Shown here: positions 11,476 to 58,363 of the stretch, in pieces | How the letters are laid out: each line of letters begins with the position of its first letter | Numbering within the stretch: position 1 is the first letter of the stretch | The notes under the pieces: model-generated | Told to the model about the DNA's origin: nothing | The model's input: the letters and a program-made list of their open reading frames with translations, nothing else | Database searches by the model: none | Translations under genes and position numbers: made by a program | Assembly: GCF_014334335.1 (NCBI RefSeq) | Contig: NZ_JACSEU010000001.1 | Span: 1,054,001-1,118,000 of the forward strand | Length of the DNA: 64,000 bases | Origin: Treponema sp. Marseille-Q3903 | Lineage (GTDB): Bacteria > Spirochaetota > Spirochaetia > Treponematales > Treponemataceae | Direction of reading: 5' to 3'

Positions 11476-12708
11476 ATGCAGATTACGGTTTTATGTAAAG
11501 TTGTTGATAATTTTGGAGATATTGGAGTTTGCTGGAGGATGGTAAAGCAGCTAAAAATAGTTGCGCCAAAATATGACATAAACTTTGTCGTTGACGACTT
11601 GAAATCTTTTAGTAAAATTTGTAGCGATGTCCACTCCGATAAAGATTTTCAAATTGTCCGAAATATAAAAGTTTACAATTGGAACGCTCGTGATTTTTGC
11701 TACAAGGAATTTTCTAAAAATGATGGCGAAAAATTATCTGTGATTTTAGAAAATTTTCAATGTGGACGCCCTGACTGGATGGAAAAAATTCTTTTTGATG
11801 ATAAACTCGCTCAAACTGTCCACATAATCATGATAGATTATCTTTCTGCTGAAAAATATGCTCAAGATTTTCATTGTTCAAAATCGCTTACCAGAAGCGC
11901 AAAAGTTCAAAAGGTAAATTTTATGCCCGGTTTTACAGAAAAAACAGGGGGACTTGTGCTTGGAGGGCTTTGGGATAAATCAGGTAAATCAAGTAAATCA
12001 GATAAATCAGGTAAATCAGGTAAATCAGGTAAATCGATAGCTAAAATTGATAAATGTTATCATTTAGAAAATCAATCACAAAATCAATTTCAAAATGAAA
12101 ATTGTCTTCCAAAACAAAAAAAAATACTCGTGTTTACGTATAAAAGAGACTGGACTGCGCTTGCAAAATCTTTGGAAAACAATTTTGTGTACGTTGCACA
12201 AGGAGTTGGCAGAGATAGTTTTGTTGAGTCGTGGGAAAAAGTTTTTTTTCAAAAACGGCGAACTTCTGCTTCTAAATTATGCGAGCTCGAGTTTATGGAT
12301 CAGGAGCAGTGGGATAATTTTATGATGTCCTGCGATATTTTGATAATCCGCGGTGAAGATTCTATGTCTCGTGCTTGTCTTTCAGGTATTCCGTTTATCT
12401 GGCATGCATATCCTCAAAGCGACGAGTATCAGATTGTAAAAGTAAATTCTCTGCTTGAGAGAATTGCTCGCCATTTTAAGAGTGAAGATTTTAAAATTAT
12501 ACAAGATGTATGGCTTGATTTTAATAAACCGAAATATGAAGTCAGTGACGTAGAGTTTGAAAAGAAATGTCGTAACTTTATTGAAAATGCAGATAAACTT
12601 AAATATGGTTTTATAGACTTTGCAAATGATATCAGAAAAAACGGCGACCTTTGTGCTAACTTAATGACATTCATTGAGAAAACTGCTATAATAGAAAAAC
12701 AAATTTGA
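11476..12708 (+). CDS. earP: EF-P arginine rhamnosyltransferase EarP
   Basis: EarP transfers rhamnose from TDP-beta-L-rhamnose onto a conserved arginine of EF-P, which activates EF-P for rescuing ribosomes stalled at polyproline. The 410-residue protein has the family's N-terminal DNFGDIGVCWRM motif (binding-site Asp and aromatic) and the C-terminal nucleotide-sugar site IRGEDSMSRACLSGIPFIWHAYPQ. Its target gene efp starts 26 nt downstream, as in other EarP organisms. An unusual Ser/Gly/Lys-rich insertion at about residues 167-187 is encoded by a 9-bp tandem repeat. The terminator upstream and CAGGGA ribosome binding site support the start. Confidence 0.92.
   Translation: MQITVLCKVVDNFGDIGVCWRMVKQLKIVAPKYDINFVVDDLKSFSKICSDVHSDKDFQIVRNIKVYNWNARDFCYKEFSKNDGEKLSVILENFQCGRPDWMEKILFDDKLAQTVHIIMIDYLSAEKYAQDFHCSKSLTRSAKVQKVNFMPGFTEKTGGLVLGGLWDKSGKSSKSDKSGKSGKSGKSIAKIDKCYHLENQSQNQFQNENCLPKQKKILVFTYKRDWTALAKSLENNFVYVAQGVGRDSFVESWEKVFFQKRRTSASKLCELEFMDQEQWDNFMMSCDILIIRGEDSMSRACLSGIPFIWHAYPQSDEYQIVKVNSLLERIARHFKSEDFKIIQDVWLDFNKPKYEVSDVEFEKKCRNFIENADKLKYGFIDFANDIRKNGDLCANLMTFIEKTAIIEKQI
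11974..12036 (+). repeat. 9-bp minisatellite inside earP
   Basis: Seven tandem 9-bp units of the type GGTAAATCA (with GATAAATCA, AGTAAATCA and GGTAAATCG variants) encode a run of S-G-K/S-D-K/S-S-K tripeptides. Because the unit is a multiple of three, length changes keep the frame and would only lengthen or shorten a flexible, basic linker between the two Rossmann-like halves of EarP. Confidence 0.9.
12664..12692 (+). promoter_or_regulatory. Promoter for efp inside the end of earP
   Basis: ATGACA (12664-12669) and TATAAT (12687-12692) are spaced 17 bp apart. The expected start leaves a leader of about 35 nt with an AGAGG ribosome binding site, so efp can be expressed without earP. Confidence 0.65.
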
Positions 12709-17835: not shown

Positions 17836-17898
17836 TGGAAAATTTCCCTTAATTTCCCGGATTCAGCGTATGGTGCGGTGTGCAATCATACATAAAAT

Positions 17899-18658
17899 TC
17901 GGGCAAACTGGATTCGAACCAGCCTATAATCGAAAAACCGTTAAAAAACGAGCACCTTAGTGGTCGTTTTAGGTTCATCGAAAGAACGGCGTGCGAGCAG
18001 ATTTATCTGCTCGTGGTTCGACAATTAAAACAAATTGAAAAGTTAGTTACGAAAGTAGGAAAATGATAACAAAGTGGAAACTCGGGCAAACTGGATTTGA
18101 ACCCGCCTATAATCGAAGAACCGTTAAAAAACGAGCACCTTAGTGGTCGTTTTAGGTTCATCGAAAGAACGGCGTGCGAGCAGATTTATCTGCTCGTGGT
18201 TCGACAATTAAAACAAATTGAAAAGTTAGTTACGAAAGTAGGAAAATGATAACAAAGTGGAAACTCGGGCAAACTGGATTCGAACCAGCCTATAATCGAA
18301 GAACCGTTAAAAAACGAGCACCTTAGTGGTCGTTTTAGGTTCATCGAAAGAACGGCGTGCGAGCAGATTTATCTGCTCGTGGTTCGACAATTAAAACAAA
18401 TTGAAAAGTTAGTTACGAAAGTAGGAAAATGATAACAAAGTGGAAACTCGGGCAAACTGGATTCGAACCAGCCTATAATCGAAGAACCGTTAAAAAACGA
18501 GCACCTTAGTGGCCGCTTTAGGTTCATCGAAAGAACGGCGTGCGAGCAGATTTATCTGCAGAACGGCGTGCGAGCAGATTTATCTGCTCGTGGTTCGACA
18601 ATTAAAACAAATTGAAAAGTTAGTTACGAAAGTAGGAAAATGATAACAAAGTGGAAAC
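17899..18658 (-). repeat. Tandem array of four 183-bp units, each beginning with the tRNA-Pro 3' end
   Basis: Copies of the last ~25 nt of the adjacent tRNA-Pro gene (T arm plus 3' acceptor strand) recur at 17899, 18082, 18265 and 18448, with the intact tRNA beginning at 18659. The first three units are exactly 183 bp; the fourth is 211 bp because of an internal 28-bp duplication near 18531-18586. Each unit also carries (a) a hairpin CGAGCAGAT-TT-ATCTGCTCG and (b) a terminator-like hairpin that ends in T6 only on the minus strand (17943-17970 and +183 steps). Unit 4 has two A-to-G changes (minus strand) in that stem, both turning A-U into G-U. The units are otherwise nearly identical. There is no open frame. 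Confidence 0.93.
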
Positions 18659-18731
18659 TCGGGCAAACTGGATTCGAACCAGCGACCTCAACGTCCCGAA
18701 CGTCGCGCGCTACCAACTGCGCTATTGCCCG
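18659..18731 (-). tRNA. tRNA-Pro(CGG)
   Basis: The acceptor stem is CGGGCAA/TTGCCCG, with the C1-G72 pair and A73 expected for bacterial tRNA-Pro. The anticodon loop TTCGGGA gives CGG, reading CCG codons. The T arm is GCTGG-TTCGAAT-CCAGT. CCA is not encoded. Downstream of its 3' end lie four partial copies of its own 3' end. Upstream, the tRNA-Asp terminator separates the two genes. Confidence 0.93.
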
Positions 18732-58302: not shown

Positions 58303-58363
58303 CACAGCACAGCACAGCACAGCACAGCACAGCACAGCACAGCACAGCACAGCACAGCACAGC
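58303..58363. repeat. Pentanucleotide microsatellite (AGCAC)11
   Basis: Eleven perfect AGCAC units (58306-58360) are flanked by CAC and AGC partial units. A TTGACA (58273-58278) with CAAAAT 17 bp later (58296-58301) lies directly upstream, so the repeat sits at or just after the probable transcription start of the lipoprotein gene at 58567. A five-base unit is not a multiple of three, so slippage would shift any frame through it and change leader length. Confidence 0.95.

Follow-up and report, generated by a model that had tools for sequence, protein, structure and literature searches.

Why should an intact tRNA gene be followed by four further copies of its own 3' end? In the window analysed here (64,000 nucleotides of the Treponema sp. 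Marseille-Q3903 genome, to which all positions refer), the tRNA-Pro(CGG) gene lies on the minus strand at 18659–18731, as identified by both ARAGORN and Rfam. It is succeeded on the same strand by four units which, from the tRNA outward, measure 211, 183, 183, and 183 bp (18448–18658, 18265–18447, 18082–18264, and 17899–18081). Tandem Repeats Finder places an array with a 183-bp period at 17895–18559 (3.6 copies, 98% matches). It also reports a duplication of 28 bp at 18532–18587, inside unit 1, whose length is accordingly 183 + 28 = 211 bp. The tRNA 3' end, here called X, recurs as a 23-nt copy that closes every unit (18448–18470, 18265–18287, 18082–18104, and 17899–17921). The copy at 18082–18104 carries two substitutions, and the one at 17899–17921 forms the end of the array. 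This anatomy confirms an earlier, sequence-only reading, which had described four units after an intact tRNA gene, three of them of 183 bp, each with about 25 nt of the tRNA 3' end, and an internal 28-bp duplication in the tRNA-proximal unit.

Between the tRNA end and X, the minus strand of each unit contains four further parts. A spacer (18599–18658 in unit 1) recurs in every unit; no hairpin-plus-T-run terminator is seen by eye in the unit 1 spacer. It is followed by H0, an inverted copy of the start of X that forms an arm of a predicted outer stem (18591–18598, 18380–18387, 18197–18204, and 18014–18021), by the hairpin H1 (18571–18590, 18360–18379, 18177–18196, and 17994–18013), and by the hairpin H2 (18471–18545, 18288–18362, 18105–18179, and 17922–17996). 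The array interior contains no open reading frame of 80 aa or more and matches no Rfam family at the gathering threshold, and the 183-bp unit has no match among plasmid or phage records. Ten matches to the H1 core, counted on both strands, represent five places in the array and one three-mismatch match elsewhere, against 0.06 expected.

A search of the genome with the 183-bp unit, as had been proposed for other tRNA genes, found its hairpin part again behind tRNA-Glu, at the start of a gene that we read as ffh, and at other places. At tRNA-Glu (L009), the 3' end of the tRNA gene recurs in three units of 125 bp, after which come units of 91 bp; at the ffh start (L014), units of 201 bp bear the start of that gene and match one another at 99%. 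The constant part of all these units, which we term E, is a non-coding sequence of about 100 bp that consists of H1 and H2. H1 combines a variable stem with loops that, by eye, come from a short list. H2 contains a GCC/GGC stem, a 4-bp stem, a GAACC/GGTTC-like stem, and an A-rich/T-rich stem in which a TTAAC stays unpaired. Most copies end in GGC at the 3' side, the commonest ends being TTAGGC, GTAGGC, and ATAGGC, and in 126 of 134 target clusters an A or a T follows the 3' end of the model.

E is widespread in the genus. A covariance model built from nine copies of the window's own genome (R1) detects E in 11 of the 24 same-genus genomes examined, but in none of 15 genomes from other genera of the order. 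With a broader model (R2), 46 of 98 same-genus genomes prove to contain E, the richest having at least 46 copies. The copy counts from both models are lower bounds, since no more than 124 (R1) or 50 (R2) candidates were scored per genome. A pattern scan of GTDB genomes yielded at least 120 stretches with E. Among the stretches listed, all but one carry titles of Treponema, Spirochaetaceae, or Spirochaetales, and the Treponema titles include T. bryantii, T. porcinum, JC4, C6A8, and assemblies from gut and rumen. The exception (L240) is an assembly labelled Alphaproteobacteria, for which mixed binning is the likely cause. All 123 pattern loci entered an nhmmer search and 83 of them the alignment A4. 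Copies below 30 bits, cut by the end of a locus, or with identical flanks were dropped, leaving 207 distinct copies, of which two more were set aside for short flanks and 205 were testable. E is therefore a real, structured DNA element in many genomes of the genus, and the array of the window is one tRNA-linked example. A chance local duplication, which the sequence-only reading had kept as its null case, is excluded by the H1-core matches and by the recurrence of the element elsewhere in the genome and in relatives. E goes unnamed in the titles and abstract openings of the matching literature outside subscription journals. We also noted E in three viral contigs (L249, L250, and L251) and within a prophage-like stretch of the window's genome (L011).

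In 52 of the 205 copies, from 35 source loci, a second copy of an upstream sequence (X2, the upstream one being X1) begins within 6 nt of the 3' edge of E, as compared with 0 of 2,050 shuffled flanks; the 52 include copies internal to arrays and a few (L009, L187, and L239) whose repeat is the next E. The other 153 copies have no X2 under this test. A wider search finds a strong flank repeat in 57 copies, and in 41 of these the repeat starts at offset 0 or 1 from the edge, so that the junction between E and X lies at the edge of the element. When flanks were swapped between loci, scores of 40 or more occurred in 19 of 3,000 pairings because many loci share tRNA ends.

The copied gene ends belong to five tRNA genes, namely tRNA-Leu(CAA), tRNA-Leu(TAA), tRNA-Val(TAC), tRNA-Pro(CGG), and tRNA-Glu(CTC), and to protein genes that we take to be fabF, pheS, and gdhA at their 3' ends and, in antisense, ffh and a DJ-1-like gene at their starts. 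At tRNA genes the copy begins mostly at the T arm, (A/G)GTTC. As a general target GTTC was discarded, being present at tRNA genes and weak elsewhere: TTC occupies positions 3–5 in 14 of 134 clusters, yet reaches up to 13 at another offset.

Where X is coding, the two copies can be compared codon by codon. Before the first stop, synonymous and nonsynonymous differences number 14:1 (L080) and 7:0 (L214) in fabF, 8:0 (L081) and 9:0 (L316) in pheS, and 9:3 (L297) and 2:0 (L286) in gdhA. Over the whole frame the ratios are poor for L158 (fabF, 6:7) and L165 (gdhA, 5:10) because the second copy matches well at first and then diverges. Two pairs at L014 are nearly identical, and for ffh at L201 the count along the entire stretch is 13 to 10. 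About six of 16 coding comparisons show clearly that synonymous differences prevail, in a set in which the best-scoring frame is in several cases probably not that of the gene and in which L299 is unframed. Judged by eye, X1 and X2 are followed by seemingly unrelated terminators at two tRNA loci (L111 and L093). Mainly synonymous differences and unrelated terminators thus suggest that, in several cases, both copies seemingly worked as gene ends through most of their separate history. Either copy may be the one that came in. For pheS in two sister genomes, the X1 copies agree at 44 of 46 sites, as against 36 of 46 for the X2 copies, and the closest sequence to one X2 is that of a relative without E (41 of 46); given these agreement counts, we dropped the idea that X1 is always the incomer.

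At least 8 nt are common to the left flank and the inverted target in 13 of 181 copies, against 2.3 expected. Eight of these 13 inverted copies lie directly beside H1 and at the edge of E, and the other five elsewhere. For four E units (two from the window, L080, and L059), single-stranded DNA is predicted to adopt a three-way fold in which the target closes the junction, with z-scores from -5.35 to -6.90; the H1 arm is weak in L059. In the predicted fold of the window unit, the outer stem is formed by TCGAACCA/TGGTTCGA.

Other structured inserts follow tRNA-Pro in relatives (L107, L110, L115, L116, L123, and L128). By eye, an inverted T arm (GGATTCGAA..) opens several of them, and in L110, L115, L123, and L128 the insert is succeeded by a copy of the tRNA end; E is absent by R2 from these four and by R1 from L107. 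In L116 (1641–1717), a pseudogene copy of tRNA-Pro contains E within its anticodon arm, and in L112 and L123 fragments of tRNA-Pro precede the intact gene, between tRNA-Asp and tRNA-Pro.

Comparison with relatives that lack E reveals plain insertions of about 97 bp with no clear target duplication by eye (L079/L310, L087/L322, and L086/L323). At gdhA, E occurs in either orientation, depending on the species. Some copies abut the end of a convergent gene: its stop trinucleotide is found at the E edge in 20 of 134 target clusters, whereas offsets 8–59 give a mean of 7.1 and a maximum of 14. In L319 (genome G039) the frame of the neighbouring gene, as we read it, enters E, which supplies its C-terminal residues and stop codon.

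On a balance that we put slightly above even, these observations are best explained if E is a mobile folded-DNA cassette site, attC-like in its logic, that is joined to gene ends by a putative recombinase acting in trans. A unit would then consist of a gene end X, a spacer or terminator, an inverted copy of the start of X, H1, and H2. E would be recognised as folded DNA, probably single-stranded, and its 3' edge would be joined to targets in or near gene ends, such as the T arms of tRNA genes, the 3' ends of coding sequences, stop codons, and, in antisense, the starts of genes. Where a gene end is part of the piece that is joined, the target would retain a working end and a second copy of that end would come to lie behind E. 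Tandem arrays like that of the window could arise from repeated joining or from recombination between units. Two suggestions of the sequence-only reading survive here in part. A tiny element using the tRNA 3' end as attachment site is in keeping with the presence of E at other tRNA genes and with the upstream repeat that begins at the E edge in a quarter of the copies, but protein-gene ends are targets too. Recombination between repeats, for its part, may account for the near-identical units of the window array, but not for the E family.

The alternative that survives best, though we still consider it unlikely, is that E is a MITE- or REP-like palindromic element inserted beside gene ends, and that the X copies are tandem duplications, produced by slippage or unequal recombination, that later diverged or were gene-converted. 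REP/BIME and MITE repeats are short, dispersed, non-coding, and palindromic, and some lie near stop codons; E shares all of these properties. The near-identical units of the window (98%) and of the ffh locus (99%) demonstrate that local amplification happens, and both the plain insertions and the 20 locus-strand groups with same-strand copies less than 400 bp apart (repeat spacings of 89 to 298 bp) fit this explanation. However, plain duplication predicts random breakpoints and not a junction concentrated at offset 0 or 1, and it predicts neutral decay of X2 and not the mainly synonymous differences of several coding pairs; the differing terminators of L111 and L093 argue against it as well. 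Gene-end copies at one fixed edge and an inverted copy of the target further set E apart from REP/BIME and MITE repeats. In addition, the Y1 transposase of TnpA-REP type (PF01797) that accompanies REP/RAYT systems is found in 2 of 11 E genomes and is absent from that of the window.

The folded-cassette reading also has to be distinguished from the insertion of genomic islands at tRNA 3' ends, where a copy of the target gene end comes to lie behind the element. E resembles these islands in this respect, its copy beginning at the T arm, but differs from them in also using the starts of protein genes. A tRNA-targeting integrative element would moreover carry its own integrase between the gene-end copies, whereas these are spaced 183–211 bp apart in the window, and the spacings of 89 to 298 bp across loci are too short for an integrase gene.

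Integron integrases are one candidate for a mover of E. In attC sites pairing is retained while sequence diverges, as it is in E, and the tandem arrays of E are cassette-like. The genome of the window encodes an intact integron integrase (TIGR02249, 487 bits; L272, G000:C1:681914-682861), which adjoins repeats that we read as classical attC sites; an exact attC scan was too strict and missed these repeats, and was left out of the assessment. Treponeme integrons are covered in PMC3607928, and PMC12901181 reports, for integrons, both the recognition of folded DNA and joining to sites outside the integron (attG). Still, we regard it as improbable that E is an integron attC or a close derivative of one that an integron integrase has carried to secondary, non-integron sites. 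According to PMC12901181, attC is defined by an R' core GTTRRRY, with the crossover after the G, and a complementary R'' of RYYYAAC, whereas the edge of E is mostly GGC followed by A or T, with the junction after this next base. E units also bear gene ends, whereas integron cassettes bear genes. Around the genome's own integrase, R2 gives no E at an E-value of 0.1 (L272 and L273) and R1 just a 16-bit match at 0.11, and with no convincing E found there by either model we rejected this identity. An integron integrase above the cut-off is present in 4 of 11 E genomes (so that 7 are without) and in 4 of 13 same-genus genomes lacking E, and none above the cut-off is found in T. bryantii XBD1002 (G015), which has at least 45 copies of E.

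The search for an integrase that uses this core, which the sequence-only reading had recommended, identified no tyrosine recombinase with a clean co-occurrence with E. A loose cluster is present in 7 of 7 E-rich genomes and also in 4 of 7 E-less ones, in a clustering that covered 41 of 75 matches and 13 of 14 genomes and omitted Xer-type pairs and some short matches. We rejected an E-rich-specific tyrosine recombinase on these grounds, as the largest cluster is not confined to E-rich genomes and identity among its members ranges over 24–99%. Among 37 loci searched for E beside an integrase gene, there is a single match (34 bits). IS91-type, Y1, and reverse-transcriptase movers were rejected too, being unmatched in most of the E genomes searched. 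None of the candidate enzymes is convincing, and the moving step is therefore one that we infer.

Is the conserved fold one of DNA or of RNA? Across 160 distinct copies of E, the 3,141 pair cells comprise 2,995 Watson–Crick pairs, 18 G.T, 30 A.C, and 98 others. By comparison, 18 distinct tRNA-Pro genes of the same genus (360 cells) show 345 Watson–Crick pairs, 14 G.T, and one A.C. In an alignment of 104 E matches (103 distinct rows), which was fitted to the model and is hence biased towards it, 15 of 20 pairs vary on both sides, and 340 cells are changed on both sides as against 5 on one. Shuffled alignments reach the covariation of E in 0 of 500 cases for four of five measures and in 6 of 500 for the fifth. 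The first alignment of nine rows shows no clear covariation by itself, as 67 of 500 shuffles reach its score. An RNA under selection would be expected to accept G.U pairs on its own strand; E hardly does so and displays no strand bias, so the nearly exclusive Watson–Crick change of its stems suggests that the fold is kept as DNA. Correction of palindromes during replication could also produce Watson–Crick-only covariation, without selection on the fold.

These pair types, set against those of tRNA-Pro, led us to reject the RNA reading of E, and we consider it very improbable that E is a structured RNA transcribed from the tRNA side, such as a tRNA-linked small RNA like RttR. The sequence-only reading had arrived at that explanation, and at an RNA-strand-specific covariation, from two A-to-G changes that keep G.U pairing in the tRNA direction. 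Both changes are located in the tRNA-proximal unit and do preserve that pairing, but they are exceptions in the family, and the inference from them fails because G.T is not commoner than A.C among the 160 copies. The location of E behind tRNA genes and the small RNA annotated at the same kind of place in E. coli would fit an RNA; however, the array matches no Rfam family even at an E-value of 1, and copies that abut a convergent stop codon, as in 20 of 134 clusters, are not expected of one. We give equally little credence to an IS91-like rolling-circle element, or a reverse-transcribed one, with a single fixed 3' end: E does have one fixed end and a variable left end, and the GTTC beside its junction at tRNA targets resembles the IS91 target, which is GTTC, but the Y2 transposase (PF04986) typical of IS91/ISCR elements is unmatched in all 24 same-genus genomes searched, although a helper might be encoded elsewhere, and RVT_1 occurs in 1 of 7 E-rich as against 4 of 7 E-less genomes and is missing from an E-rich assembly of two contigs with 99% completeness.

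The nearest known look-alike of the E arrays is an old puzzle, the tyrosine tRNA repeats of E. coli. The array at tyrV of E. coli K-12 comprises 3.1 copies of a 178-bp unit; each includes 19 nt from the end of tRNA-Tyr, and the unit contains a 10-nt inverted copy of that end. The tyrV/rttR unit is likewise predicted to form a three-way junction as single-stranded DNA (z -4.45). Of 5,426 E. coli genomes, 4,692 contain the repeat core, a genome-wide count giving between 1 and 10 places in each. As in the array of the window, tandem units thus stand behind a tRNA gene and contain its 3' end. The core sequences differ, however, and R2 matches no E there; rttR is annotated as a small RNA (RtT sRNA), and the array has no match to an RNA family of Rfam. 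The tyrV repeats and E are therefore alike in design and do not belong to one family, the three-way fold that they appear to share being a prediction in both.

We tentatively extend the folded-cassette reading to a wider proposal, which as a whole we rate as unlikely: folded-DNA cassettes mobilised in trans may exchange gene ends (3' ends with terminators, starts with leaders) between gut Treponema species, and the E. coli tyrT/RtT repeats may be a second, independent family of the same kind. On this wider proposal, the tyrT/RtT oddity would be a product of recombination rather than a tRNA accessory. If the folded-cassette reading is right, gene ends and their terminators would be movable as tiny, gene-free, non-coding cassettes, and tandem arrays behind tRNA genes in unrelated bacteria would have a testable origin. 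It would also carry a warning, as pronounced covariation downstream of a tRNA gene may reflect folded DNA and not an RNA, the mark of the former being Watson–Crick-only change.

The tyrV repeat core also occurs in 27 records of a plasmid collection (H21–H40), 13 from Escherichia, 12 from Klebsiella, and 2 from Salmonella, some of which are chromosome-sized. Elsewhere in the window, we observed two short tandem repeats, CACAG repeated 12.2 times at 58303–58363 and a 9-bp repeat within a reading frame at 11976–12035.
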